Positions 21,564-55,380 of a stretch of 64,000 nucleotides of DNA are shown in pieces; the first letter of the stretch is position 1, and each line of letters opens with the position of its first letter. Under the pieces are notes generated by a model that was not told where the DNA came from, ran no database searches, and was given only the letters and a program-made list of their open reading frames with translations. The position numbers were made by a program, and so were the translations under genes. The stretch lies in contig ONHW01000001.1 in NCBI GenBank assembly GCA_900317745.1, forward strand, positions 124,001 to 188,000, in the 5' to 3' direction. The DNA is from an uncultured Bacteroidales bacterium (GTDB lineage: Bacteria > Bacteroidota > Bacteroidia > Bacteroidales > Paludibacteraceae).

Positions 21564-22115
21564 CTATTCATTGGCTTTGTTATTTGACTCAATATCGCCA
21601 AATAATTTTGCCATATCTTCTTCTATTTCTATTTGTATTCGTTCGCGTTCTTCCGGGTCTTCAATATGATCCAAGTAATCAACTAACGATAGCCCTTTTC
21701 GTGGCTTATCGCCATATAGACATCGATGTGTATATTTATCATAGATAGCTACGATTCTATCCAGTAGCTCGGTTTTTGTCGGACGTTCTGTTGGATATAA
21801 AGCGCCAAGGTACTCTATACAGATTCTATCTGTTACAAAATGTGCCCCTCTTCTTTCTTCCGGACGGGAGGACGTTTGGTTGATATGATCTATAATCAAT
21901 TTCTTGTCCCGTAATAACTCTTTTATTGCGGTGACATCGCAATCGTCCAGTTTCTGGGCTGCCCAATACTTGTCATTTGCTTCTCCCCTTCCAGAATCCG
22001 GGATAAAACGATGAGATAAAACATCGGTCGAATCATCGTATTCAACTTCCAATGTCGGTGTGGACATAAATGAATCGAATGTCCCTTTATACCAAAGTTT
22101 AACTTGATTATTCAT
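21564..22115 (-). CDS. Hypothetical protein coupled to the gluzincin-like gene
   Basis: No family recognised in these 183 residues. It is soluble, with charged helices near the end (DPEERERIQIEIEEDMAKLF) and a Trp/Tyr-bearing start (MNNQVKLWYKGTFDSFM). Its ATG overlaps the stop of the upstream 704-residue protein (ATGA, 22112-22115), so the two are almost certainly translated together and may act as a pair. No separate promoter is visible. Confidence 0.6.
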   Translation of the reverse strand: MNNQVKLWYKGTFDSFMSTPTLEVEYDDSTDVLSHRFIPDSGRGEANDKYWAAQKLDDCDVTAIKELLRDKKLIIDHINQTSSRPEERRGAHFVTDRICIEYLGALYPTERPTKTELLDRIVAIYDKYTHRCLYGDKPRKGLSLVDYLDHIEDPEERERIQIEIEEDMAKLFGDIESNNKANE

Positions 22116-24226
22116 AGATTTGCGATTTTATATTCAACAAATGCAATCTCAGCATCCGTCAGCCCAAATAGCCGATAGAATGCGTCGTCATCCCACGGCT
22201 GCGACAAGACGGCTGCGCCATTGCTTCTGACATAATCATTAATGACTCCTACGATGTTCGGCAAATAGCCCAAAGCAATCTTCGTTATGGTGGGAACAGA
22301 ATACTTAGTTACCCCTGAATACGTCATCGCAATAAACGTTGCCAACTCTGACTCAAAGAATGCATCCAAAATTGCCTCCGGCACATGGAATAACATATCT
22401 GGATTACTTGGCGGATACGGATTAACAGGATTAATAATCGATATGGTGTTCGCATTTTTCTTTGTCGCAATCCCGGTCTTTTTCACCATCCGGTACTTGC
22501 CAGTAACTCGCTTCAGAAATCGGCTTAATTGAATGGTATATGTTCCGACACCTTGTGCATTATTGAGCATTAAATAACCCATAGACCTGCCACTGCACTT
22601 TTCTATGATTTTTAAAGACATCTCGTCTCGTATGATGATATTAAAAAATCGTTGATGCGAAAAACTTGAACCATTAGATAATTGTATCCCTATATCGTGA
22701 GACCAAGCACGCGATCGCGTGAGGTCGATGATACAAGCACCTTTCGACAATCTGGGATATTGCGGGAGAATCATTTGTGAATCCTCATAATCATATATTC
22801 TTTCTACTTTTTTTCTTAGCCTATTATAAAAGTTCTGCTTGGTATAATCACGCGCATTCCAGTAATAATACCAATCTGCAGGAACGCAGAATTCTCCGCA
22901 CCTAGTAGTTACGTATAAACTATTTCGAACAGCATTCTGCCAAACCGCTATTTGCTTACCACGAATAGTCTCGTAGAACGGTGGGATTCCCATAACAACG
23001 TAGAATTGTTGACGTGGAGAAGTTTGCCCTAACAGATTCTGATAATATGTGCTGTCCGGCATTTTGAATGTTCGATAATCTTTTGCCCATACATGAATAT
23101 CTGACGAATCTTTCCTGCGGAAAATCTGCTTCTCACGGATATGTTGCCGACGAGCATTTTCGTCAGGAATTTCCTCAGATAATCCCTCCATCAACATTTC
23201 CTCTACTGCGTTTACAAAATCATCTGACAGATAGAACGGATCACAAAATGTGATTCTTGTGCTTCTGTAGAGAGAGGGGGGCAAGCTATTCAACGCATCA
23301 TTAATAGCATCCTGATTGCATTTAGTTGGATTACCAGCCTTCGAACGAGATATCTTACCCGACGATTGTCCGTTGTGTAAGATCTTCCATAACAACTCAG
23401 CATACTCCTCCTCGTGTGGCCATGGGTATGCATTGAGACGGAAAGGAAGACTATATGTCCTTATCAGCTGGCTATTCATCAGCGGCTTGCCGGCAACCAC
23501 CAACATCTGCGGCTGTATCTGCCCTTGCCTAAATATATATTCCCCGAATCCATAATCAGGAAGGTAAATTTTCTTCCATTCTACGCTACTGATGGCACTC
23601 TTATGAAACCCTTGGTGTTGCGAATTCTTATGCTCAAACGCTTTCGCCCACTGCAACATTCCCAACTCAGCCATCGGCTCTTCTATGAATGTGTTGACAT
23701 CACCTACTGACGGCTGTGTATGATAGGCTGCATGATGCATCTCATGTGCATAAGTTTGCGCCAACAGCCAAACGGCTGAAGTGTAGAACTTAACATCATT
23801 GCGGATGGTATATAAATACAGGTACACACGCTTGCCCTTCTCGTCATCTATAAATTCGCCAAGAGTTTTAGGAATCTTTGCATCATGTTCTCCGGCGCGT
23901 GCAGACAACACTTGTCTGTAGTAATGGAGATTTTTGTCAAGATTCTTTTGCTCCTCCGCTGTAAGCGTGCCGTCCTGCATTTTTCTCAACAACTCATCCT
24001 GCTCTCTTTTTGCCTGCTCTTGCAGCTCCTTCAGTTCAGCCTCAGTCACAACCACCTTACGCTGACGAGACTCTTCCTTCCTCGTCAATATATACACCGG
24101 AACCTGCTGATGAATATCACCCAGCGACTTCGCGTACGATATCTCGTACGGACATGCATCAGCCGCCTGCAATATCTCTAATTCCTGCTGAGTTAATAAA
24201 TTCTGCGGATCTATAAATGGTGCCAT
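22112..24226 (-). CDS. Putative zinc metallopeptidase (gluzincin-like) of unknown family
   Basis: The 704-residue protein contains AHEMHHAAYH near residue 164, an HExxH zinc site, followed about 20 residues later by EEPMAELG, where a Glu could be the third ligand, as in gluzincins. A charged helical segment (about 50-115) precedes it. The C-terminal 400 residues match nothing I know; the last stretch (AFYRLFGLTDAEIAFVEYK) resembles the tail of Eco57I-type enzymes, but no methylase motif (NPPY) is present. There is no signal peptide, so it probably acts in the cytoplasm. Its stop overlaps the next gene's start. It lies in the restriction/stress island, 139 bases after DUF2130. Confidence 0.6.
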   Translation of the reverse strand: MAPFIDPQNLLTQQELEILQAADACPYEISYAKSLGDIHQQVPVYILTRKEESRQRKVVVTEAELKELQEQAKREQDELLRKMQDGTLTAEEQKNLDKNLHYYRQVLSARAGEHDAKIPKTLGEFIDDEKGKRVYLYLYTIRNDVKFYTSAVWLLAQTYAHEMHHAAYHTQPSVGDVNTFIEEPMAELGMLQWAKAFEHKNSQHQGFHKSAISSVEWKKIYLPDYGFGEYIFRQGQIQPQMLVVAGKPLMNSQLIRTYSLPFRLNAYPWPHEEEYAELLWKILHNGQSSGKISRSKAGNPTKCNQDAINDALNSLPPSLYRSTRITFCDPFYLSDDFVNAVEEMLMEGLSEEIPDENARRQHIREKQIFRRKDSSDIHVWAKDYRTFKMPDSTYYQNLLGQTSPRQQFYVVMGIPPFYETIRGKQIAVWQNAVRNSLYVTTRCGEFCVPADWYYYWNARDYTKQNFYNRLRKKVERIYDYEDSQMILPQYPRLSKGACIIDLTRSRAWSHDIGIQLSNGSSFSHQRFFNIIIRDEMSLKIIEKCSGRSMGYLMLNNAQGVGTYTIQLSRFLKRVTGKYRMVKKTGIATKKNANTISIINPVNPYPPSNPDMLFHVPEAILDAFFESELATFIAMTYSGVTKYSVPTITKIALGYLPNIVGVINDYVRSNGAAVLSQPWDDDAFYRLFGLTDAEIAFVEYKIANL

Positions 24227-30616: not shown

Positions 30617-32103
30617 AGTATTCCTCTCAGACGGTTGATGTTCTCGATGATAGTGTTCTCCAGCGTCTCAATGCGCTCCAGCACCTCGTGCGGGTTCTCC
30701 TGCTTGACTGCGGCACGCTCCACCTGTTTGTACTTGTTGAACGTGAAGTCGTAGTCATTCTGCCGTATCTCGTCCACCGGCACGAGGAACGACTGCTCCG
30801 TGCGTGCGCGCTCCGCTTCCGCCTCGCGGTTCTGCCAACGGCGGATGATGTCGGGTATATCGTTGTCGTCTATCGGATCACGTGTGTCATTGAGCGTGAA
30901 GCCGTCAGCGTGCATGTCGTAGAACCACACCTTATCCGTTCCGCCGTTGTCGGTCTTGGTGAAGATAAGAATAGCCGTGCTCACACCTGCATAAGGCTTG
31001 AATACGCCCGAGGGCATAGAGATGACCGCTTCGAGTTTCTGATGATCCACCAGCTCCATCCTCAGCGCTTTGTGCGCCTTGCTGTTGCGGAACAGCACAC
31101 CGTCAGGCACGATGCTTGCACAGCGTCCGCCAATCTGTAAGATTCGGATAAACAGCGCAAGGAACAGCAACTCGGTCTGCTTGGTGTTCGTGAGCGTCAA
31201 CAGCGACTTGCTGACAACCTCGTTGTCCAGACTGCCCGTGAACGGCGGGTTAGCCAGACACAAGGTGTAACGGTTGGCATCGGTGTTGTCGGCAGAGAGC
31301 GAGTCTTGCCAGGCGATGTTCGGCGCATCAACACCGTGCAGCATCATGTTCATCGCACCGATACGCAGCATGTTCTGGTCGGTATCGAAGCCGTTGAACA
31401 TATCCGAACGGAAACGCTGCCGCATGTTCGGCCCCATCAGTATCCTGCCGTAATGCTCCTTGATATATTTAGCAGCCTCGACGATGAATCCCGCCGAACC
31501 CATTGCCGGATCGCAGATCTTGTCGTCAGGCGCAGGCTTCATCAGCTCCACCATCATCCGGATGATATGTCGCGGTGTGCGGAACTGCCCGTTCGTGCCG
31601 GACTCCGCCATCTTGCCGAGCATGTACTCATATACATCCCCCATAGCATCGCGGTCAGTCATATCCAACGCATCAATGCCATCCACCACCTTCTGCAACG
31701 TACGCTCCGAAGGGATAAGGAAGATGGCATTCTGCATGTAACGCGAATACGCCGACTCCTGACCGCTGCCGATGTTCTTTATGAACACAAACACGTTCTC
31801 GCGAACCATCTTGAACATGTTCTGCGAACCGGTGTTCTTAAACACATGCCAGCGCATATCATTGTAGGGGACGAGATTGCCCGTCTCGGGATTGCGCCAC
31901 GAGCCGGCAGGGAACGTCGGGTTCTCCAGTTTGTTGCCGAACAACTGCGCATTGGATTCCTCGCGCCGCTGCGTGTCGTCGAGCATCTTCATAAAGAACA
32001 TATACGTCATTTGCTCCAATATCGTGATGGAGGTCGTGACACCGCTGTTCCAGAATGCATCCCATATCTGGTCAACCCGATTCTTGATCTCGCCTGTTAT
32101 CAT
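30613..32103 (-). CDS. hsdM: Type I restriction enzyme, DNA methyltransferase subunit
   Basis: HsdM transfers a methyl group to adenine at sites chosen by HsdS. An N-terminal helical domain (about 1-150) is followed by the SAM-binding fold with PAMGSAGFIVEAA (about 197-209) and catalytic CLANPPFTGS (about 283-292, an N-P-P-F motif). Length (496 residues) is typical. First gene of the hsdM-hsdS-hsdR set. Its leader carries a 16-base direct repeat (GTTAAACTATT type, 32113-32145), and the promoter at 32171 carries the shared inverted repeat. Confidence 0.97.
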   Translation of the reverse strand: MITGEIKNRVDQIWDAFWNSGVTTSITILEQMTYMFFMKMLDDTQRREESNAQLFGNKLENPTFPAGSWRNPETGNLVPYNDMRWHVFKNTGSQNMFKMVRENVFVFIKNIGSGQESAYSRYMQNAIFLIPSERTLQKVVDGIDALDMTDRDAMGDVYEYMLGKMAESGTNGQFRTPRHIIRMMVELMKPAPDDKICDPAMGSAGFIVEAAKYIKEHYGRILMGPNMRQRFRSDMFNGFDTDQNMLRIGAMNMMLHGVDAPNIAWQDSLSADNTDANRYTLCLANPPFTGSLDNEVVSKSLLTLTNTKQTELLFLALFIRILQIGGRCASIVPDGVLFRNSKAHKALRMELVDHQKLEAVISMPSGVFKPYAGVSTAILIFTKTDNGGTDKVWFYDMHADGFTLNDTRDPIDDNDIPDIIRRWQNREAEAERARTEQSFLVPVDEIRQNDYDFTFNKYKQVERAAVKQENPHEVLERIETLENTIIENINRLRGIL

Positions 32104-32170
32104 AACTTTTCTTATTTAATAGTTTAACATTTCAATAGTTTAACAATGTCCCCTTTTTCATTTCCCGTTG

Positions 32171-32207
32171 CAAAGGTACTACATCGTTGTGCAAGCTATT
32201 TGCATAA
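32171..32207 (-). promoter_or_regulatory. Operator-type promoter, copy 3 (hsdM)
   Basis: TACCTTTG (32171-32178) then, after 8 bases, TTGTGCAA-N5-TTGCATAA (32187-32207). Same geometry as copies 1 and 2. The 28 bases from TACTACATCG onward are almost identical to copy 1 at 21478. Confidence 0.75.
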
Positions 32208-32249
32208 TCCGTATAATTCGTGCATTTTTTTGAAATAGCCGCAATTTTA

Positions 32250-33695
32250 TTATCCGAACAAGTCATCTAAAGTTACGACATTTACAAAATCACCAAAGTA
32301 TTGGTTATATGCCAAACCATAAGTAGTTACCAACGTACTATGAATAACTGTTTTCCGACTTACCTTCTCCACCAGCGTATTCATCCTGTGCACCAATCTC
32401 ATGTGGTACGATTTATTTACCGAGAACTCTTCACTATAAAATTTCATCTCGCACATATTCACCACATTATCTTTTCGCTGGATAAGCAAATCGATTTGCG
32501 TCCCTTCTTGCTGGTCATCGCCATTTACTGCCCATGCAGATTGCGAGGACGATATACCGGCAATCTGTAAAGCACGCTTGATAGCACCAATATGGCGCAG
32601 GCACAAATCTTCAAAAGCGAAGCCGCGCCAACTATTGATTTTGGGCGATTCGACATTGTTCATCCAGAATGCATCATCCATTTCCGATTGCTTATCCACG
32701 AACTTCAGATAGAACAAGCAGAATGGATCAATCAAGCGGTAATGTTCATTACGCTTACTTTCACCAAAGGGCACATAACGCTCCACAAAATCACTTGCCA
32801 CCAGTGCCTTGAGCCATTGGGAGAGATGCCCGTTACACCCCAAGTTTGTACCTTCAGCGATGCATTCACGTGTAAATCCTTTTCTTTTGGTTGCAAGATA
32901 GCGCACGATACGCATCATTTCCTCCGGGTTAGTAAATATGGAAGCAAAGAGTTTGGTGAATTCGTCTTTCAGTTTGGCGTTTTGTGCGAAGAACAGGTTG
33001 TCGATATTCTGCGCAAGGCTCTTACCACGCGTAAAATATGTCATATAGTACGGAATTCCGCCAAGAATCATATTTGCTTGAGCGATATCATAACGGGAGA
33101 GTTGTATGCCTTGGCTCTGGTAGAACTGTTCGCATTCAGCTAAAGTAAATGGCGTAAGTTTGATCTCGTATGTCGTGCGGCCATACAATCCGCCATGATT
33201 ATTCACCAAGTTATCCAACATCCACGAATTGGCACTACCGCACACAACGAGCATCATATTCGTGCGATGACATGCCCATCCGTTCCAAAACGCTTCCAGA
33301 GCTGTTATAAACCCGCTTCTCGGCGTATCCATCCATGGCAATTCGTCAATGAACACAACTTGTCGCGCACCGGTATCAATAGTTTGCAGGTGCTGCTCTA
33401 ACATAAAGAATGCCTCCAGCCAGTTCTTCGGGCTGCTCCTACCTTTCCATCCTTGAATCAAGAGAGAATGATAGAAATGCAGCAATTGTGCCTTCATGTT
33501 ATTCGACTTACCATTCTCATCGATAGGACTTAATCCGGCATGACGAAAAGTAATATCCTCGCGAAGTGCTTCATCTACCAAAAAGGTCTTTCCCACACGG
33601 CGACGACCATAGATGGCTACAAATTCAGCTTTAGGGCTTGATACAAGTTTTTTCAACTCGTCAACCTCTTTGTTTCTTCCAATAATTGCGCTCAT
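32250..33695 (-). CDS. Predicted ATPase of the DUF234/archaeal-ATPase type
   Basis: The 481-residue protein has an AAA+-type N-terminal domain: Walker A IYGRRRVGKTFLV (about 29-41) and Walker B VFIDELPWMD, and later a region typical of DUF234 C-terminal domains with SWRGFAFEDLCLRHI and QIDLLIQRKDNVVNMCEMKF (D...E-x-K, nuclease-like). Members of this family are often near mobile or toxin loci; function is not known. It has its own canonical promoter (33767-33798), overlapping the end of the WYL gene, and a 65-base gap before the hsdM promoter. Confidence 0.85.
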   Translation of the reverse strand: MSAIIGRNKEVDELKKLVSSPKAEFVAIYGRRRVGKTFLVDEALREDITFRHAGLSPIDENGKSNNMKAQLLHFYHSLLIQGWKGRSSPKNWLEAFFMLEQHLQTIDTGARQVVFIDELPWMDTPRSGFITALEAFWNGWACHRTNMMLVVCGSANSWMLDNLVNNHGGLYGRTTYEIKLTPFTLAECEQFYQSQGIQLSRYDIAQANMILGGIPYYMTYFTRGKSLAQNIDNLFFAQNAKLKDEFTKLFASIFTNPEEMMRIVRYLATKRKGFTRECIAEGTNLGCNGHLSQWLKALVASDFVERYVPFGESKRNEHYRLIDPFCLFYLKFVDKQSEMDDAFWMNNVESPKINSWRGFAFEDLCLRHIGAIKRALQIAGISSSQSAWAVNGDDQQEGTQIDLLIQRKDNVVNMCEMKFYSEEFSVNKSYHMRLVHRMNTLVEKVSRKTVIHSTLVTTYGLAYNQYFGDFVNVVTLDDLFG

Positions 33696-33766
33696 AATTG
33701 CATTAAATGGGCTTCGAATACTTGTTTTTGCTATTTCGTAGCCCGATATAACTTATTTTTCGGCAG

Positions 33767-33798
33767 CAAAGATACTACATTTTTCTTAATTTTGCAAA
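33767..33798 (-). promoter_or_regulatory. Promoter of the ATPase gene
   Basis: TTTG (33795-33798), N20, TATCTTTG (33767-33774) on the minus strand, an exact consensus match. The -33 half lies inside the last codons of the WYL gene. Confidence 0.82.
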
Positions 33799-34790
33799 TT
33801 TTTATGGTATAATTCGTGCATTTTGTTGATTTTTTCTTGTATTTGCAGCCTTAACGATTCAGGTGCAAGCACCTCAACATCTTCGCCGAACCACAAGATC
33901 TGCGCTTCCAGTTCGCGGTTGGGAATAACGGTTATCTCAATCAGTCCCTGCTGTTTGTCTTTAGTCTTCTGCGAGGGATGCAGCGGCTTGGATAGTACGT
34001 AAGGCAACCGGTTCGGTGCAAACCGCAGCAACACATGTTCCGGCTCTTTGCCTTGCGGGATACTCACGCCTATAACGTCATCGAAATATTCAGAGAAATC
34101 AATATCCGTCTCCTTATACGCAACGCGACTCGGTTCGATGCCTTGTATCCTGTCCAGCGCAAAGTTCTTCATCTTACCTGTATCCGCATCCTCCGCGAGC
34201 AAGAACCACCGGCTGTTGTGCTGCTTGATATAATACGGATGCAGCGTCAGCACTTGCTCCTGTTTACCAAACGGCTGATACGTCAGCTCTATCGACTGCT
34301 TGTTCACGATATAGTTAAACAGCGTCTCCAAGTGCTCCAAGCCTTGCAGATACTCGTTCCCCTCAAAGCCGATGATGCTCTCCGTGTGATTGTTAAGGTG
34401 CATCTTGGTCTCTATCTCCGCCAACGTCTCTGCCATCCAATCGAACTGCGGCAATCCTTTCAGCCGCGACAACATCAGCACCGTGTCTTTCAGCTTGGCA
34501 ATCTCCTCATCCGTCAAAGGAGCCTGCTGAATGCTGAAATTCGTATCTTCATACCGGTAATACACCCTGCCATACGCATCACGCAGGTGCAGCACATTCA
34601 CGTGATAGATACTCTCAAACTCGTTGATATCGTATTTGAGCGTCCGCTCACTCACAGGCGTGCAGTCATATCGCACCAAGTCCTTGTTGCATTCCGCCAA
34701 CAAGTCCTCAATATAGTACCGCTTCGTCTTGTTCCGAAAACACCGATCCAACGCGAAGTGACGTATCTGTTTCTGCTTTATTACCGGCAT
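33786..34790 (-). CDS. WYL-domain transcriptional regulator
   Basis: From Met at 34790 the protein has about 334 residues: an N-terminal winged-helix DNA-binding part (FALDRCFRNKTKRYYIEDLL, then PVSERTLKYDINEFES), a central WYL domain (about 155-235, with YNAYQ-like LTYQPFGKQEQVLTLHPYYI and WFLLAEDADTG) and a C-terminal domain. The frame runs 39 codons further upstream, but that part is AT-rich leader containing the promoter. WYL proteins often regulate defence islands by binding nucleic-acid or nucleotide ligands. It is a candidate for the regulator of the three operator promoters (inference). Confidence 0.9.
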   Translation of the reverse strand: MPVIKQKQIRHFALDRCFRNKTKRYYIEDLLAECNKDLVRYDCTPVSERTLKYDINEFESIYHVNVLHLRDAYGRVYYRYEDTNFSIQQAPLTDEEIAKLKDTVLMLSRLKGLPQFDWMAETLAEIETKMHLNNHTESIIGFEGNEYLQGLEHLETLFNYIVNKQSIELTYQPFGKQEQVLTLHPYYIKQHNSRWFLLAEDADTGKMKNFALDRIQGIEPSRVAYKETDIDFSEYFDDVIGVSIPQGKEPEHVLLRFAPNRLPYVLSKPLHPSQKTKDKQQGLIEITVIPNRELEAQILWFGEDVEVLAPESLRLQIQEKINKMHELYHKNLQN

Positions 34791-49107: not shown

Positions 49108-50258
49108 TGGGTAACGGAAGTCAGTTCGCCATCGGCAAGAACGGTGGTGATGGTTGTACCTGCGGGTACGTCGGCAGCGTGGCGGAGGACCTTGCCATCA
49201 CACAGAGTAAGAGAGTAACCCTTCCTGAAAATCTGTTCGGGCGAGTGCAGTCGGACAGCCTGCTCGAACATTCGAAGTTTGCCAAGCTCTGCCTGAATCG
49301 TGTTGCTGACCGTGTATTGCAGGGTGAGGCGCAGCTGTTCGATCTGCCTGCGGCGGAGGGCTACCATCTGTGTGGCTACATGAGCCAGGCGCTGGCGCAG
49401 TTCGTCAATACGTACGAGCTGGCGGGCGTTGTGGTCGATGAGTGCTTCGGCTACAGCGGTAGGCGTCTTGAGCGACTGATGCACCACCATATCCACGATA
49501 CTCACGTCGCGCGTATGACCTATACCCGACAAGATAGGCAGCGGAAACTGTGCACAATGCGAGGCAAGGGAGTAATCGTCAAAACAAGTAAGATCGGTAG
49601 TTGCACCTCCACCGCGAATGATAACCACGCTATCGAAGTCGTCGGCCACCCCGGCAATGGCACTGAGTGCGTTGATGATCGATCGTGCCGCCTGTTCACC
49701 CTGCATGACGGCAGGAAAGAGCTGTGTGCTGAACAGCAGGCGGTACGGGTTATCCGTCAGCTGGTGGCAGAAGTCGCCGTAGCCGGCTGCATCCTCGGCA
49801 GAGATAACGGCTATGCGGCGGATAATGGTAGGCAGGCTGAGCGACTTATTCATATCCAGCACACCATCTTTCTCCAGTTGTTGCAGAGTGAGTTGGCGCT
49901 GGCGTGCCAGGTCGCCCAGGGTAAAGGCAGGGTCGATATTACGGATATTCAGGCTTAACCCGTATATGGGGTGAAAATCCACACTGACCTCCACCAGCAC
50001 CTGCATGCCCGGTTCGGGACGTTTGCCTGTCTCCTGCTGAAAATAGGCGGATATAAGCTGCCAAGTATTGCTCCAGCAGGTAGCGCGAATCTTGGCGGCA
50101 AAGATTCCTTTCTCGCCTTTCTCAACGAGCTCAAGGTAACAGTGCCCCTTGTCCGTCAGTTGCGCAATCTCTGCACGCACCCAATACGTACCGGGCAGTC
50201 CCTGTTGAATACATTGATCCAACTCAGCGCATAACTCGGATAGGGATAATGATGTCAT
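49104..50258 (-). CDS. xseA: Exodeoxyribonuclease VII large subunit
   Basis: XseA with XseB degrades single-stranded DNA into short oligonucleotides. An N-terminal OB-fold (about 1-95, YWVRAEIAQLTDKGHCYLEL) is followed by the catalytic domain (VISAEDAAGYGDF, VVIIRGGGATTDL, LPILSGIGHTRDVSI). Length 384 is shorter than E. coli XseA (456). xseB is not adjacent. It overlaps, by ATGA, both the upstream PD-(D/E)XK-like gene (50255-50258) and the downstream HhH gene. Confidence 0.95.
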   Translation of the reverse strand: MTSLSLSELCAELDQCIQQGLPGTYWVRAEIAQLTDKGHCYLELVEKGEKGIFAAKIRATCWSNTWQLISAYFQQETGKRPEPGMQVLVEVSVDFHPIYGLSLNIRNIDPAFTLGDLARQRQLTLQQLEKDGVLDMNKSLSLPTIIRRIAVISAEDAAGYGDFCHQLTDNPYRLLFSTQLFPAVMQGEQAARSIINALSAIAGVADDFDSVVIIRGGGATTDLTCFDDYSLASHCAQFPLPILSGIGHTRDVSIVDMVVHQSLKTPTAVAEALIDHNARQLVRIDELRQRLAHVATQMVALRRRQIEQLRLTLQYTVSNTIQAELGKLRMFEQAVRLHSPEQIFRKGYSLTLCDGKVLRHAADVPAGTTITTVLADGELTSVTQ

Positions 50259-51238
50259 AGCCCGTAGAATTTCTTCACTGATTGATCTAAATCAAAATCA
50301 CACAGCACTTCTTGATAAGAAAGCGACGTTTCCAAAACCTTTAATTTCGATTCTGCTTTAATCATATTCAACTTGCGTGCGAGTTGCTTATATAAATCAA
50401 CATAAGAGTTGTATGACTTATGACCTTTATCTACGTCCTCGCTGAACTTAAATAAAATCTCTCCTAAATAAATATGGTCGTAATTCTTTCCATCGCCCTC
50501 AATGAAACTATTCTGTATTCCAAGATAGTGCGAAATCATCTGCTTGATACCTTGGCAATACTGCTGCGGTTTCCCCTTTGACGCTGAAATGGACCAAGTC
50601 TCAGTTCCACGAACAATCTCCAAATCTCTAATAGGCTGACCATCAGCAATCAAAGCACGGTAAATATCATCATACACAAAACTAATTTGGTCATATTTAC
50701 CATGCGTCAAATACTCTGAGAATTTTGATTCTAAGAACAATATAACGGACTCGCCAGCATCATTCCTGCCAATCAAAACCACGTCCATATTTGAGTTATG
50801 CTGACCTTCCTTATCAATAGGATTCTTCTGCTCAAAAAGACTCTTGTAGAATTCAACTTTTCTACCGTCAATCTCCATCGTTAACGGATGGTCTTTCGAT
50901 AAGGAGTAAAAGCACAACAGAGCCACCAATGAAGAAGAATGTAAAGTGGAAATCCGGCGATACTCTTGTCCATCGCCCGAAATAGCCATACAATACTTCC
51001 CTCCAAATAATTCATCCGTAATGCCAAATATATCCTTCAGATTTGCATATACCTGACATTCACTGACGTTTTTACCCATGTCTATAAAAGAGCATGAGTT
51101 TTCTGAGTACTTCCCCTGCCAATATGTCTGGAAGAGTTTTCCTTCCTTAATGCACTTCTCTACAAGAGGATTTTCCTTAAAGAATTGCTGATACAATTTG
51201 TCTTTCGGCAATTGCTGTTCTGAATTTATCTTAATCAT
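50255..51238 (-). CDS. Putative PD-(D/E)XK nuclease-like protein upstream of xseA
   Basis: I do not recognise this 327-residue protein as a named family. Around residues 149-173 NMDVVLIGRNDAG then SVILFLESKFSEYL gives the D...E-x-K pattern of PD-(D/E)XK nucleases. The rest is soluble, with no signal peptide. It has its own promoter (51312-51343) and its stop overlaps the xseA start, so XseA translation depends on it. It may be a restriction-type nuclease captured in front of a housekeeping gene; the catalytic role is inference. Confidence 0.55.
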   Translation of the reverse strand: MIKINSEQQLPKDKLYQQFFKENPLVEKCIKEGKLFQTYWQGKYSENSCSFIDMGKNVSECQVYANLKDIFGITDELFGGKYCMAISGDGQEYRRISTLHSSSLVALLCFYSLSKDHPLTMEIDGRKVEFYKSLFEQKNPIDKEGQHNSNMDVVLIGRNDAGESVILFLESKFSEYLTHGKYDQISFVYDDIYRALIADGQPIRDLEIVRGTETWSISASKGKPQQYCQGIKQMISHYLGIQNSFIEGDGKNYDHIYLGEILFKFSEDVDKGHKSYNSYVDLYKQLARKLNMIKAESKLKVLETSLSYQEVLCDFDLDQSVKKFYGL

Positions 51239-51311
51239 AGTTTTTATATTTTTCTCAACAAATTTGTGACTATCTTGGATAATTACGTTATTGTTCGCAA
51301 TTTTGCGACTG

Positions 51312-51343
51312 CAAAGTTAGTAAATTTTTCTAAAATTTGCAAA
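51312..51343 (-). promoter_or_regulatory. Promoter of the nuclease-like/xseA/HhH operon
   Basis: Exact consensus TTTG (51340-51343), N20, TAACTTTG (51312-51319), in the 123-base gap after the 106-residue gene. Confidence 0.83.
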
Positions 51344-51361
51344 TAATTGTCTAAAATTCTT

Positions 51362-51682
51362 TCATGAATCTTTTTTTTTGTGAAAATTCCTGTAATTCCA
51401 CCAGTAAGCAATGCGCTGGAAACAATTGAGATCCTCATTATAACAGCCATCCGGCGCTTCAATTTCAGCGATGATGTTTCGGATAGGATCCGTTATTGTC
51501 CACCACCAATATCTCCATAAAGGTTCTTGCGAGCAATAACAATATGGATGATCGTACTCTTTTGTCAGTTCGCAATACTTATCGATGATATCCATCATCA
51601 TTGCGATTTGCTTCTGTGACCCATATACCACAAATTCCGATTTCTGGTTAGGGCCATGATAAAATTCACCTCTGTAAATCAT
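51362..51682 (-). CDS. Hypothetical Trp-rich small protein, end of the polymerase-core operon
   Basis: These 106 residues match no family I know. They are rich in Trp/Tyr (PLWRYWWWTITDPIRN) with Cys (PYCYCSQEP) that could bind metal. Start overlaps the preceding gene's stop (ATGA, 51679-51682). Last gene of the six-gene operon that begins at 54587. Confidence 0.55.
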   Translation of the reverse strand: MIYRGEFYHGPNQKSEFVVYGSQKQIAMMMDIIDKYCELTKEYDHPYCYCSQEPLWRYWWWTITDPIRNIIAEIEAPDGCYNEDLNCFQRIAYWWNYRNFHKKKDS

Positions 51683-52026
51683 ATTTTAATAATTTTGACG
51701 TTTTTACCAGTTTGCTCCATTTTCCGAATGGAGTCAAACGTTCCTTTCGATTCTCCGGACGGGAAGGCGACCATCGCATCTGCGTCATCCACGATGAGCG
51801 AGTTTCGCACTATGGGAGCCCGTCGTCCGTAAAATGAATAATCAGGCAAATGTTCGATGAGCTTCAGGCGGTTTTCTTCGGCTAAACGCCTCGCGAAAGC
51901 GTCAATACCAACAGCACCGCCGGAAACAATTGTATCCACATTTGCCGAGATTACCCGACCAAGTTTTTCCTTGAATTCTTCATACGAGATACTTGGATTT
52001 CTCGTTCCAACAATAGCTAATTTCAT
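51679..52026 (-). CDS. SLOG-type Rossmann protein (DprA/YspA-like)
   Basis: From the ATG at 52026 the protein has 115 residues: MKLAIVGTRNPS at the start, VSGGAVGIDAFARRLAEE in the middle and ADAMVAFPSGESKGTFDSI at the end. These are the nucleotide- or sugar-binding loops of the SLOG superfamily, whose members include nucleotide sensors and DprA. The longer frame begins at 52155 but overlaps the sigma fragment. It starts 7 bases after the sigma-like gene. Confidence 0.7.
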   Translation of the reverse strand: MKLAIVGTRNPSISYEEFKEKLGRVISANVDTIVSGGAVGIDAFARRLAEENRLKLIEHLPDYSFYGRRAPIVRNSLIVDDADAMVAFPSGESKGTFDSIRKMEQTGKNVKIIKI

Positions 52027-52033
52027 ATTGACT

Positions 52034-52315
52034 TTAATTTTGGTTAAATGGTTTTCCTTCCATCGCTTGACGAATGAACCATACGGCATAAGGAACAAAT
52101 TTGCATCCACTTTCAGGATTGTACCGATGCCAAGCTTCCACCAATCCTGTTTCACCTCTGGTCAGAAGTTCCTCCATTGGAGCCGGGTTGCCGCCGCGCA
52201 GTTGACGACGAGCAACCGACTCAACGAAGGGATGAAACTGTTGTTTGACCTGTTCGTCCGTGAGATTTTTAACTCCAGACTCAATGTTTTTTACAAATTC
52301 CAAATTTTCGTTCAT
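52034..52315 (-). CDS. Truncated sigma-70 region-2-like protein
   Basis: The 93-residue protein (from the ATG at 52315) matches sigma-70 region 2: HPFVESVARRQL aligns with region 2.1 and ELLTRGETGLVEAWHRYNPE with 2.2, then KFVPYAVWFIRQAM with 2.3-2.4. It stops right there, lacking regions 3 and 4, so it cannot recognise a -33/-35 box but may still bind the RNA polymerase clamp. It may be a decoy or a partner of the polymerase-like protein upstream. Lies 84 bases after the DnaE-like gene. Confidence 0.75.
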   Translation of the reverse strand: MNENLEFVKNIESGVKNLTDEQVKQQFHPFVESVARRQLRGGNPAPMEELLTRGETGLVEAWHRYNPESGCKFVPYAVWFIRQAMEGKPFNQN

Positions 52316-52399
52316 ATAGAAAAACATTTAGTGTTACAATTCAGTATGTAAAAGATCGCTATATTATATATATACGAACGAGAGGTGTTATTGTTTTTG

Positions 52400-53572
52400 C
52401 TAACGGGTAATGGAACGCAGTTCTTCTTCGAGGAGTTTATAACAATCGCTATCTTTATCCCGAATAGTTGCAAACGCGTCCAAAAACTCCATTGGATAGT
52501 GCGCTTTGAGATATGCTACTTGGTATGCAAGCCATGTATAGCAAACGGAATGAGCCTTTAGGAAGGAGAAACGCGAATCATACATGGACTGCCAAATACG
52601 ATCAAGGGTCTGTTCGTTGTATCCATTTTGGTTCCCGCCGGATATAAACTTAGTTTTCATTACTTCCACTATAGGTTGATTCATACGTACGAGTGCCCAA
52701 CGTAGCATATTACTTTCTGCTGGTGTGAAATGGGCTATACGCTGAGCCAATAACATTGTTTGCTCTTGATAAACAATCATCCCATAGGTCTCCTTGAGAC
52801 ATTCTCCCACAATGGGAGGTCTTTCTTTGATCTCATCCTTACGATGCTTGCAGGCAATAAACTGCGGAATCTGTTCCATCGTAGGTGGTCGGTATAAAGC
52901 ATTCAGCGCAAGAAGATCATTGATGTTTTCCGGAGTAAGTTCGCGTAAGTATTTCTGCATACCTTCCGATTCGAATTGGAATACACCAACTGTACGACCT
53001 TCTTGGAAGAGACGGAATGTATGTTCATCATTTTGTGGGATGGCTTTTAGGTCTATGTCTATACCATGTTCCTGCTTGATATTGCTCAGGCATCGCTTAA
53101 TCATCGTCAGAACGGTAAGCCCTAAGATGTTCGTCTTCCCCGGACGTGTTTCTCCGAATTTCTGTGCTAAGTAATCCGTCACTTTATCACGTTCGCAAGA
53201 TTCGACATCAATATCAATTAACGGTACGACACTATTGTCTGAATAGAAACGTTCAAACAGCAGACCATATCTCAGCGGATCAATGTCGGTTATCTTGAGG
53301 CAGTACAACACGAGTGAGCCTGCTGCGGAACTGCGACCAGGTCCAACATCAATGCCCATTTTACGTGCGGCATTCACATAGTCTGCAACCATTAAAAGAT
53401 AACTGATAGTACGTTCATTGGAACATAGTGTTTGGTGTTCTGTTTCTGCACGATGGGTGAAAGCAGGAGTATGAATAAACTCGTTTCCATAACGCTCAAT
53501 AGCGCCTTGTAATACTTGTTGACGCAACTCTTCTTTGGATGAAGAGGGAGAATTAAATAAATGTGTGTTCAT
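52400..53572 (-). CDS. Minimal DnaE-like polymerase core
   Basis: The 390 residues align with the palm, thumb and finger domains of the bacterial replicative polymerase DnaE: GIDVGPGRSSAAGSLVLY, then PLIDIDVES (the two catalytic Asp), GVFQFESEGMQKY, INDLLALNALYRPP (third Asp), YGMIVYQEQTMLLAQ and FLKAHSVCYTWLAYQVAYLK. The N-terminal PHP domain and the C-terminal HhH, OB and tau-binding parts are absent. All three catalytic acids are present, so activity is possible. It starts 18 bases after the 248-codon frame. Canonical DnaE is about 1200 residues. Confidence 0.85.
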   Translation of the reverse strand: MNTHLFNSPSSSKEELRQQVLQGAIERYGNEFIHTPAFTHRAETEHQTLCSNERTISYLLMVADYVNAARKMGIDVGPGRSSAAGSLVLYCLKITDIDPLRYGLLFERFYSDNSVVPLIDIDVESCERDKVTDYLAQKFGETRPGKTNILGLTVLTMIKRCLSNIKQEHGIDIDLKAIPQNDEHTFRLFQEGRTVGVFQFESEGMQKYLRELTPENINDLLALNALYRPPTMEQIPQFIACKHRKDEIKERPPIVGECLKETYGMIVYQEQTMLLAQRIAHFTPAESNMLRWALVRMNQPIVEVMKTKFISGGNQNGYNEQTLDRIWQSMYDSRFSFLKAHSVCYTWLAYQVAYLKAHYPMEFLDAFATIRDKDSDCYKLLEEELRSITR

Positions 53573-53590
53573 TATAATAGTTGTTTTTAT

Positions 53591-54325
53591 TTAATACGGG
53601 ATACCTTTCTTGTTAAAATACATAGCAGTAGCCATGTTGGAGGGTTTGAGGCGAACAACAAAAGCCAAGCGCTGTTTGAAATCGTCCTTCTCAATAGCAA
53701 GTTGCACCGCATCAAATGAGGTGACTTTTGCAAGCGGCAGGTTAAGAAGATATTGAGCCCTTACGTAGCCGATCTCAAAACGCTTCTGAAAGCGCGCACA
53801 TGCCTCTTTGAGGTCTTTGGAAATGCGAACGAAATGAATAAACTCCTCCAAATTATCTACCACAAGCCCACAGCATTCCAATTCGTCAAGATGTCGTTTG
53901 ATTGCACTTATTTCCGCATCAATATGATTCATCATATACCATGCGGAGGTATGAAGCAAGCGAACGTTACGAATACGAATGGATTTCGTATCCGAGGTTT
54001 CGAAGTCAGGCAATCCTTCATCAAAATCATCAGGTTCTTTCAGGTAGTTTTTGGGCGGTTCGGTAAATGTACGTTTGTACGTATCAACGTAGTGCTGCAA
54101 AAATGCAGCACGTTCAGTCGAGTCAGCTTGTTGGATTTCCTGTTCCACATTCTCTATGGGGCTGAAGCCGAAATTCTCCAAGAAGGAGATTTCGTTGTAG
54201 TTCGGCATGTCAATCACAGCTTGTCCTGTAGGCGTGAAGTCTAATAGATTGGGTCTCATAGTTTCTGCATTTTGAAGGCAATGCTTAGCATTGCGTGAAA
54301 CATTATTGATTCGAATCTCGCGCAT
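53591..54325 (-). CDS. Hypothetical protein before the polymerase core
   Basis: No family recognised in about 244 residues starting at the ATG 54325 (the frame extends to 54337 with a TTG). It is soluble, acidic in the middle (YLKEPDDFDEGLPDFETS) and probably helical in the second half. It overlaps the upstream 94-residue gene by 23 bases, so it is co-transcribed, and lies 18 bases before the polymerase core. Confidence 0.6.
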   Translation of the reverse strand: MREIRINNVSRNAKHCLQNAETMRPNLLDFTPTGQAVIDMPNYNEISFLENFGFSPIENVEQEIQQADSTERAAFLQHYVDTYKRTFTEPPKNYLKEPDDFDEGLPDFETSDTKSIRIRNVRLLHTSAWYMMNHIDAEISAIKRHLDELECCGLVVDNLEEFIHFVRISKDLKEACARFQKRFEIGYVRAQYLLNLPLAKVTSFDAVQLAIEKDDFKQRLAFVVRLKPSNMATAMYFNKKGIPY

Positions 54326-54587
54326 AGTAAATGTCAAAATAGCTACTTACGATGGAAGCGACTTGCGCTTCAGCTTGCTTGTCGGTGTATTGCCAGCCGC
54401 TTTCACACACGGCATAGTCAGCCAACTGAGCTTTGATGGCCAGGTGGTTGGAGGTCAGATAGTCCATGACCAGTTCTTGCAACTTGCCGCAGATTTTCTG
54501 CTGCCAATCAGCAGGTGGGTTGACGAGACAGCCCTGCATGGACTCTAAGTTGGGGAGAGCGAATTGAATTTTGATTTGATTTTCCAT
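54303..54587 (-). CDS. Small hypothetical protein, first gene of the operon
   Basis: This 94-residue protein shows no known domain. It starts MENQIKIQFALPNLESMQG and is helical in the second half (KQAEAQVASIVSSYFD). Its ATG is next to the large inverted repeat at 54588-54650, which probably controls it and the five genes behind it. Confidence 0.55.
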   Translation of the reverse strand: MENQIKIQFALPNLESMQGCLVNPPADWQQKICGKLQELVMDYLTSNHLAIKAQLADYAVCESGWQYTDKQAEAQVASIVSSYFDIYYARDSNQ

Positions 54588-54650
54588 ATTAGCAAAAATT
54601 AACGTTATAGTACCTTAATACGAATGAGAAACGTTAGTATTTTTGCTAAT
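54588..54650. promoter_or_regulatory. Large inverted repeat in front of the polymerase-core operon
   Basis: ATTAGCAAAAATTAACGTT (54588-54606) is matched by AACGTTAGTATTTTTGCTAAT (54630-54650), which is its reverse complement with two extra bases, around a 23-base centre. A regulator could bind as a dimer; the XRE protein next door is the obvious candidate. No canonical promoter box was clear. Confidence 0.7.
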
Positions 54651-54666
54651 TTTGATATGGACATAT

Positions 54667-54702
54667 AGAAAAAAGCCTTGTATTCAAATGGATACAGGGC
54701 TT
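54667..54702 (-). terminator. Intrinsic terminator of the GtrA/XRE operon
   Basis: On the minus strand a 13-bp imperfect stem (54673-54685 / 54690-54702, two G-U pairs) is followed by TTTTTT. It lies just after the XRE gene stop and insulates it from the polymerase-core operon. Confidence 0.8.
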
Positions 54703-54733: not shown

Positions 54734-55354
54734 TTAATTTTCCTTCAAAAGTTGTTTATAGAACGAACTTTCCTTTACGCGTTTGGCTGACCAATTACGC
54801 ATGTATGTGTGTTCTTTACGCACCAATGCAACAAGACGTTTGCTCTCTTTTTCGGCTGCTTTCTCGCGCTCTGCTTCTGCGCGCTCTTCCACATTGATAG
54901 GCGCAGGAGTTGCGGGCTCTATGTTTAAATAGATATCAAGGACATCAGCAATACGCAGGAGCGTTTTGTATGTGGGCGAAGTTTGTCCGCTCTCGATGTG
55001 TGAGTAATTGGGTGCGGCGATACCTACGAGCATAGCCACATCCTTAGCCACAAGACCCCGTTTAAGGCGCACCTCACGAATGAGCGCACCGATATTCTGA
55101 CGCACATCCTCGTCCTCAAAGAAGAGACGAGGCACGAACCCCTCGCGCTTACAATGCTTGATGACATACGAGATGACATCTATGCGATCCGCAGACTTGA
55201 TATCATCGTAAAAAAGATGCTCTATTCGAGTAGCCATCCAATCATAGGTAAGTTTACCTCGCTCTGGGGGCAACACGAACGAACAGAACAATTCGTCCTT
55301 CATCGTAAAAACCTGAACGATTTTTTCGTTGACCAATTTAACCTTAACATCCAT
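54734..55354 (-). CDS. XRE-family DNA-binding regulator with an unknown N-terminal domain
   Basis: From Met at 55354 the protein has about 206 residues. Residues about 80-145 contain a helix-turn-helix: IGALIREVRLKRGLVAKDVA and MLVGIAAPNYSHIESGQTSP then LLRIADVLDIYL. The N-terminal 75 residues are unassigned and the C-terminus is a charged helix (EERAEAEREKAAEKESKR). A longer start at 55366 is possible. It follows gtrA closely and faces the inverted repeat at 54588, so it may regulate the polymerase-core operon (inference). Confidence 0.8.
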   Translation of the reverse strand: MDVKVKLVNEKIVQVFTMKDELFCSFVLPPERGKLTYDWMATRIEHLFYDDIKSADRIDVISYVIKHCKREGFVPRLFFEDEDVRQNIGALIREVRLKRGLVAKDVAMLVGIAAPNYSHIESGQTSPTYKTLLRIADVLDIYLNIEPATPAPINVEERAEAEREKAAEKESKRLVALVRKEHTYMRNWSAKRVKESSFYKQLLKEN

Positions 55355-55380
55355 CAGTAAATACAAATATAAAGATAGGG

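Follow-up and report, generated by a model that had tools for sequence, protein, structure and literature searches.

The window analysed here is a 64,000-nucleotide (nt) stretch of contig ONHW01000001.1 from an uncultured bacterium of the Paludibacteraceae. On its minus strand lies an island of eight genes that encode, from high to low coordinates, an XRE-type regulator, the small protein p94, a look-alike of GyrA/ParC (the GyrA mimic), a look-alike of the polymerase DnaE (the DnaE mimic, or core), a sigma-70 fragment, a SLOG protein, the small protein p106 and a PD-(D/E)XK nuclease. A first-pass annotation of this DNA had described a six-gene operon, and all six of its co-directional open reading frames (ORFs) were found on the minus strand at 51362–54587; its boundaries have to be moved, because the XRE regulator (54734–55366) on one side and the nuclease (50255–51238) on the other extend the unit to eight genes. 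The GC content is 40–43% over 50–56 kb of the window versus about 52% over 46–50 kb. Further low-GC stretches (about 0.42) lie at 22001–24000 and 32001–34000.

The DnaE mimic (52400–53572, minus strand) is a protein of 390 amino acids (aa) that matched DNA_pol3_finger at 170.7 bits (cut-off 22) and DNA_pol3_alpha at 114.1 bits (cut-off 23.9). It shares the N-terminal part of the palm and the fingers with the C-family polymerase III alpha subunits, at about 44–49% identity to host-genus DnaE over two main aligned stretches. The residues D401, D403 and D555 of E. coli DnaE have been identified as active-site residues (PMC3919608) and placed in the palm active site (PMC8485763). In our alignment these positions are occupied by L118, D120 and N148, respectively, and the aspartate of the INDLL motif in the core aligns with E. 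coli D630, outside the catalytic triad. The palm–fingers core reported by the first-pass annotation thus holds, whereas its statement that the catalytic centre is kept with all three acidic residues does not. The PHP, OB and tau-binding parts, which the same annotation had noted as missing, are absent from the alignment to E. coli DnaE. With the E. coli domain borders that we take to apply, none of 78 thumb positions (433–510) and 5 of 270 PHP positions are filled, and neither 511–540 nor the C-terminal stretch 850–1160 has a counterpart in the core. Unlike C-family polymerases, the core is moreover encoded beside a nuclease, and its relatives can be fused to one. It retains the GPGR motif and the equivalent of H760. 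An AlphaFold model of the core reached a predicted local distance difference test score (pLDDT) of 84.7 and a predicted template-modelling score of 0.87; because eight of the ten rows in its input alignment are real DnaE, the model leans on DnaE. In a Foldseek search with this model, the 14 top-ranked chains were all Pol III alpha or 'DNA polymerase' (query TM 0.84–0.89). Judged by sequence and model, the core appears to have kept the DnaE fold and lost catalysis, that is, to be a dead palm–fingers protein and no polymerase.

The neighbouring genes encode further look-alikes of host proteins. The GyrA mimic (53591–54337, minus strand; 248 aa, or 227 aa from an ATG at 54274) had been listed among three proteins of no known family; its C-terminal half resembles the GyrA C-gate region, and only this region aligns (about 323–420 of the 432 positions of PF00521). 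The PF00521 match of the window protein (9.6e-05) lies below the cut-off, as do those of the L060, L061, L063 and L065 orthologues (genomes and loci are given G and L numbers, respectively), whereas the L064 orthologue scores above it. The protein is 27–30% identical to host-family GyrA and lacks the catalytic-tyrosine and winged-helix domain; its single-sequence structure prediction (pLDDT 43.9) was not used. FtsK gamma gave weak Pfam matches to the GyrA-like piece, the best (4.8e-05) at the N-terminus of the DnaE mimic pol534 (L100:10408–12012), so the two kinds of segment may be confusable; as the source of the piece it was rejected on the grounds that GyrA outscored it in the five orthologues of 230–250 aa scanned. 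The sigma fragment (52034–52327, minus strand; 97 aa) matched PF04542 Sigma70_r2 at 38.2 bits (cut-off 24), in agreement with the first-pass call. It consists of region 2 only, without regions 3 and 4, is 32% identical to host RpoD and matched the MzaA sigma of PADLOC at 3.1e-05. The SLOG assignment was likewise borne out: the 115-aa product read from the ATG at 52026 (51679–52026, minus strand) matched PF02481 DNA_processg_A at 42 bits (cut-off 29.6) and shares 43% identity with host DprA across 53 aa (E 0.003); an alternative 158-aa frame from a GTG overlaps the sigma gene. It matched the DprA-like proteins ShosA (3.3e-09) and PsyrA (4.6e-08). The likeness to the Shosta, PsyrTA and MzaA systems is at the level of domains, and none of their other genes occurred among the proteins scanned with PADLOC.

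The nuclease (50255–51238, minus strand; 327 aa) is REase-ARP-like (PF22558, 28.4 bits; cut-off 27). Its active-site motif NMD...ESK is invariant in a 10-row family alignment, and the protein is 63% identical to its homologue in L012, a contig of Paludibacteraceae bacterium isolate RUI460. It shares its Pfam family and the conserved D...ESK motif with REase-ARP/PDDEXK_13 nucleases, from which the island nucleases differ in being paired with, or fused to, mimics of replication proteins. A PDB sequence search with the nuclease profile found no solved relative. No cognate methyltransferase of a restriction–modification system was found among nine window proteins scanned with Pfam or nine proteins scanned with PADLOC and NCBIfam. 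With PADLOC 2.0.0, the genes of the operon matched no single described system and gave domain-level matches to unrelated systems only.

All 358 genomes of the bacterial family were searched with three queries, the GyrA mimic, a nuclease–DnaE fusion from a related cluster and the core. The GyrA-mimic query hit 228 genomes at E 0.001, nearly all through host GyrA/ParC, and eight at E 1e-87 or better; the fusion query hit 331 genomes at E 1e-9, mostly through host DnaE; the core query hit ten at E 1e-78, four of them through host DnaE (open frames of 1280–1450 aa). With host genes left out, DnaE mimics were present in 18 of the 358 genomes, in 19 clusters. The carriers belong to the genus of the window (G000, G335, G291, G277, G298, G222, G175, G189, G218, G314, G239, G138, G308, G262, G322, G070 and G230) or, for G009, to another genus; G277 holds two clusters, L012 and L062, one XRE-type and one with a nuclease–DnaE fusion. 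Orthologous clusters thus recur, and the genes do co-occur elsewhere. Two further genomes had a nuclease relative only: in G101 no mimic lies within 20 kb, and in G341 a contig end cuts the region. A smaller search of 200 family genomes at E 1e-80 found the core only in the genome of the window, because the other carriers lay outside that sample. A search of 393 genomes of the order with the nuclease profile at E 1e-12 yielded only the genome of the window and G434, from another family, whose stand-alone relative (L186:6799–7650) has no mimic nearby. By eye, the flanking genes differ among most clusters. L064:212–2791 and L066:10057–13245 hold related genes that, also by eye, resemble the dnaG primase and may mark a shared insertion region. 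A search for the empty insertion site gave no clean case, the near relative G305 having an unrelated gene order at xseA.

The make-up of the clusters is variable around a constant pair. A PD-(D/E)XK nuclease, fused or separate, occurs in 18 of 18 assessable clusters (that of G230 is cut off at the mimic), and restricting the count to clusters found with the GyrA mimic or the core as query gives 10 of 10. All 15 clusters that could be assessed for a regulator have one, XRE-type in eight (the window, L012, L060, L063, L064, L065, L066 and L099) and WYL-type in seven (L061, L097, L098, L100, L101, L103 and L104). Five of the WYL calls were made with Pfam and the other two by 92–93% identity to the L100 WYL gene; L062, L102, L107 and L185 were not counted, as their contigs end on the regulator side. 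The GyrA-like piece occurs in 13 of 19 clusters: eight have it as a separate gene and five as the N-terminal part of the DnaE mimic; L185 begins inside an apparent GyrA-like piece, and in L012 (2182–2260) only the first residues of the GyrA mimic are left, in frame with the DnaE mimic. DnaB pieces were seen in three clusters (L064–L066), one piece being 42% identical to host DnaB, and Walker A is lost in both separate C-terminal DnaB fragments that were aligned (L064 and L065). The sigma fragment is found in seven clusters, including a broken copy in L060 and a fused partial copy in L099, and SLOG in five, plus a remnant in L060.

In eight proteins (from G175, G189, G222, G291, G277, G009, G218 and G314) the nuclease is joined to a dead DnaE. 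At its C-terminus, the G314 fusion matches the window sigma fragment with 78% identity over 37 residues, and the G222 fusion continues into DnaB_C and DnaB_N segments. The DnaE mimics of G239, G138, G262, G308 and the contig-cut G322 begin with a GyrA-like piece; 1 bp separates the nuclease ORF of G308 from a DnaE that has PHP, palm, thumb and fingers. The 19 clusters hold 21 DnaE-like copies, of which two contig-cut ones were left out. At least one of D401, D403 and D555 is missing in 18 of the 19 copies examined, versus none of 11 host DnaE. The copies can be arranged as a series that runs from G298, with a full triad, through G308 and G230, in which D401 is replaced by lysine, and the thumbless cores to the nuclease fusions; all eight of these have lost R362 of GPGRGS and fill 111–116 of 239 finger positions. 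The mimics thus keep folds or interaction surfaces and have mostly lost activity, through the aspartates and often the thumb in DnaE and through Walker A in the DnaB fragments; the GyrA pieces have no catalytic part, and the sigma pieces no complete promoter-reading part. Together, the clusters appear to follow a common logic, in which a motif-intact nuclease is combined with mostly dead look-alikes of host machines under a helix-turn-helix (HTH) regulator.

The regulators divide the clusters in the same way as a sequence motif does. The 17-nt motif TTAGCAAAAANNNTAAC, with a conserved TTCG(A)TAT stretch behind it, stands upstream of p94 and of the sigma gene in the window; its exact form lies ahead of effector units in all eight XRE clusters and in none of the seven WYL clusters. 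Tolerating one mismatch added two sites in XRE clusters (L012 and L060) and one in the WYL cluster L098, there without the conserved stretch. The genome of the window contains exactly two occurrences, both in the island, and the reversed pattern once. The upstream copy (54633–54649) lies in the promoter/operator-like region of p94 (54588–54656, minus strand) together with an inverted TTTTTGCTAA half-site that adjoins the start codon; the second copy (52387–52403, minus strand) overlaps the stop codon of the DnaE mimic and precedes the sigma/SLOG/p106 unit. The regulator itself (210 aa, minus strand) matched HTH_3 at 42.1 bits (cut-off 23), has an N-terminal extension of unknown family, and has homologues of 65–86% identity in L012, L060, L063–L066 and L099, so that all eight clusters with the operator-like motif contain one. 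Because motif and XRE co-occur, XRE probably binds the motif. The sequence before the XRE gene in L012, L063–L066 and L099 resembles what we take to be an ordinary Bacteroidetes promoter. The 'large inverted repeat' of the first-pass annotation amounts at most to a short imperfect palindrome at the p94 promoter, with 17-nt arms that are 88% complementary and 39 nt apart. An imperfect hairpin followed by a T run, seen by eye and not detected by the scanner, lies upstream of the p94 motif at about 54668–54702. The promoter and terminator scan as a whole (20 promoter-like sites against 13.8 on average after shuffling, standard deviation 3.8; 6 terminators versus 5.5) was not used as evidence.

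The two remaining proteins, p94 (54303–54587, minus strand; 94 aa) and p106 (51362–51682, minus strand; 106 aa), had been called proteins of no known family and gave no Pfam, PADLOC or NCBIfam match. Homologues of p94 are 84–91% identical in L012, L060 and L063, and p106 has homologues in L012, L060 and L064–L066. As to the ATGA overlaps previously ascribed to several of the six genes, one is present at the SLOG/p106 junction; another, where the nuclease stop overlaps the xseA start, lies outside 51362–54587.

We compared the genes of the window with those of related clusters by the ratio of nonsynonymous to synonymous divergence (dN/dS), pairs with saturated dS yielding no ratio. The values were 0.12–0.32 for the core, 0.12–0.13 for the GyrA mimic, 0.12 for sigma (one pair, against L012), 0.11–0.26 for SLOG, 0.07–0.12 for p94, 0.075 for p106 (one pair, against L060) and 0.11 for the nuclease (one pair); the nuclease–DnaE fusions of G175 and G222 gave 0.145. 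The island genes are under purifying selection, with dN/dS mostly 0.07–0.3, which together with the recurrence of the clusters speaks against a chance arrangement. The idea that the core is a degraded dnaE pseudogene was rejected on these ratios and on the recurrence of the clusters; moreover, the N-terminal and C-terminal halves of a host DnaE lie elsewhere in the same genome, at the ends of two other contigs. Synonymous divergence between the window (50255–54587) and L012 is a mosaic (core 0.16, sigma 0.19, SLOG 0.15, p94 0.46, nuclease 1.68), a pattern that suggests swapping of modules among islands.

In a 30-row tree of the long stretches, the DnaE mimics (seven rows, support 100/100) nest among host-genus DnaE; the placing forks have bootstrap values of 90–94, below the starred level, and no viral DnaE was included. 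A larger tree of 46 rows, which included seven viral DnaE and two records of the phage collection and was made by a quick method without bootstrap and with pol534 left out as a long branch, placed the mimics alike, with a Shimodaira–Hasegawa-like approximate likelihood-ratio value of 97 at the fork with four host-genus rows and viral DnaE far off. In a palm-only tree the nuclease-fused forms stand apart from the other mimics, and the host DnaE group does not include the mimics; a constraint that keeps all 19 mimics together was not rejected by the approximately unbiased test (p-AU 0.454), and a tree of this short stretch is compatible with either one or two DnaE captures. For the other pieces (sigma, the GyrA mimic, DnaB and SLOG) the resemblance to host proteins is weaker, at the identities given above. 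The core query found seven DnaE at 28–31% identity in viral_contigs, where the GyrA mimic, the nuclease–DnaE fusion and the nuclease profile found no relative. In the phage collection, tblastn with the core matched 1246 records, all below 60% identity, and the GyrA mimic matched none. The two best of these records, MT836180 and MT839029 (L187 and L188; 48% and 42%), are human-faecal scaffolds labelled 'UNVERIFIED: Bacteriophage sp.', with full-length DnaE of 1236 and 1314 aa that group with Bacteroidales or host-family DnaE; they are probably bacterial DNA, because the first has bacterial-looking neighbours by eye. In the plasmid collection 2005 records matched the core, all below 60%, and among the eight listed five are annotated as dnaE and three are unannotated. 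The suggestion that the module is phage-derived accordingly finds no support in the trees of long stretches, in viral_contigs or in the phage collection.

We propose, at a probability of roughly 0.4, that the island is an HTH-controlled nuclease immunity system in which degraded look-alikes of host replication and transcription proteins act as bait. An accessory, perhaps defensive, module of undescribed gene set, as the first-pass annotation suggested, fits the patchy clusters, the nucleases, the XRE or WYL regulators and the lack of a PADLOC or NCBIfam system model. A literature search, largely without subscription papers, gave no description of the gene set; we rate its anatomy as new because of that result, the lack of such a system model and the lack of a solved nuclease relative. 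In the mechanism that we envisage, XRE would repress the effector units through the TTAGCAAAAANNNTAAC motif. When a phage infects the cell, those of its proteins that take over or block the host replisome, gyrase, helicase or RNA polymerase would bind the look-alikes instead and be titrated; a bound mimic, fused to or complexed with the nuclease, would switch it on, and the activated nuclease would cut phage or cell DNA and stop the infection. Tentatively, the island might then be a bacterial counterpart of the integrated decoys of plants, the host having copied its replicase, gyrase, helicase and sigma factor, inactivated the copies and wired them to nucleases, so that phage takeover proteins bind the wrong partner. 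Guard or decoy logic in phage defence is described for PrrC, PARIS and Panoptes (PMC12409349), though not for the gene set of the island. In PrrC–EcoprrI, PARIS and Panoptes a phage countermeasure triggers the effector (PMC12409349). The thing sensed there is an anti-restriction protein or a signal sponge; in the island the trigger would be a protein that binds a host-machine look-alike, and the genes of those systems were unmatched here.

Several observations weigh against this proposal. The decoy logic is drawn from the anatomy and from these precedents, and no phage partner of the mimicked surfaces is known here. The association of nuclease and mimic is partly built in, because 8 of the 18 clusters were first found with the nuclease–DnaE query, and the 19 clusters are not all independent events, several being closely related (the G175 and G189 fusions are 98% identical, and three pol534 copies 90–91%). 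The distribution is narrow, since outside the bacterial family the nuclease profile matched only the mimic-less G434. Sigma and SLOG can be lost: at L060:7597–8185 (G335) sigma is split over two frames and SLOG is partial, with p94, the GyrA mimic, the core and p106 intact. The pol534 copies are under weaker constraint (dN/dS 0.39–0.47), and the 816-aa mimic of G298 keeps all three catalytic aspartates.

The chief rival, which we consider rather unlikely, is that the fragments are dominant-negative poison subunits that enter host or phage machines and stall replication or transcription, with XRE or WYL keeping them off and the nucleases as co-effectors. Three of the pieces, the GyrA C-gate, the DnaB N-domain and sigma region 2, serve in interaction or oligomerisation, and the GyrA piece covers roughly what we take to be the C-gate region bound by CcdB-type poisons; the retention of folds with catalysis mostly gone and the pairing of a common motif with the XRE regulator fit as well. 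Poisoning alone, however, leaves unexplained why the most degraded DnaE forms are fused to a nuclease, and an identity of about 25–50% between the aligned parts and the corresponding host or E. coli proteins is low for mixed oligomers. The nuclease–DnaE pair, the most constant feature of the clusters, is what one would expect of a third and less likely explanation, a targeting module whose DnaE-derived domain binds primer–templates or forks and aims the nuclease at replicating foreign DNA. The window core, with GPGR, the H760 equivalent and a predicted palm–fingers fold, suits such a role, but its thumb is missing, and since all eight nuclease fusions lack R362 and about half of the fingers, a DNA- or nucleotide-binding site is not a property of the whole family.

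Two other explanations seem to us improbable to differing degrees. That several replication proteins share one patchy island, and that L060 has a broken sigma and only a remnant of SLOG, could indicate that a mobile element or phage left behind a remnant, or an accessory module for replication, that is decaying through fragmentation of its genes. We regard this as quite improbable: purifying selection on the short forms already points against it, gene sets and fusions recur, the DnaE mimics group within host DnaE, apart from the seven viral DnaE, viral_contigs yielded only the distant DnaE, and a Pfam scan of nine window proteins found no integrase. The least probable is a functional minimal polymerase aided by accessory factors, in line with the earlier suggestion that the core copies nucleic acid. 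The DnaE fold, the retained D403 and the full triad of the G298 copy speak for it; two catalytic aspartates and the thumb are gone from the core, on which grounds an active mini-polymerase was rejected, and nearly all DnaE-like copies lack at least one aspartate.

Even if the look-alikes were poisons, C-family polymerases, whose three catalytic aspartates are described as absolutely conserved, would here have become non-enzymatic parts fused to nucleases. If the decoy reading is true, bacteria own a modular means of sensing the hijack of their replication machinery. The list of mimics would then show which host proteins are attacked by the phages of these gut bacteria, and the mimics themselves could serve as bait for fishing out new phage takeover factors.

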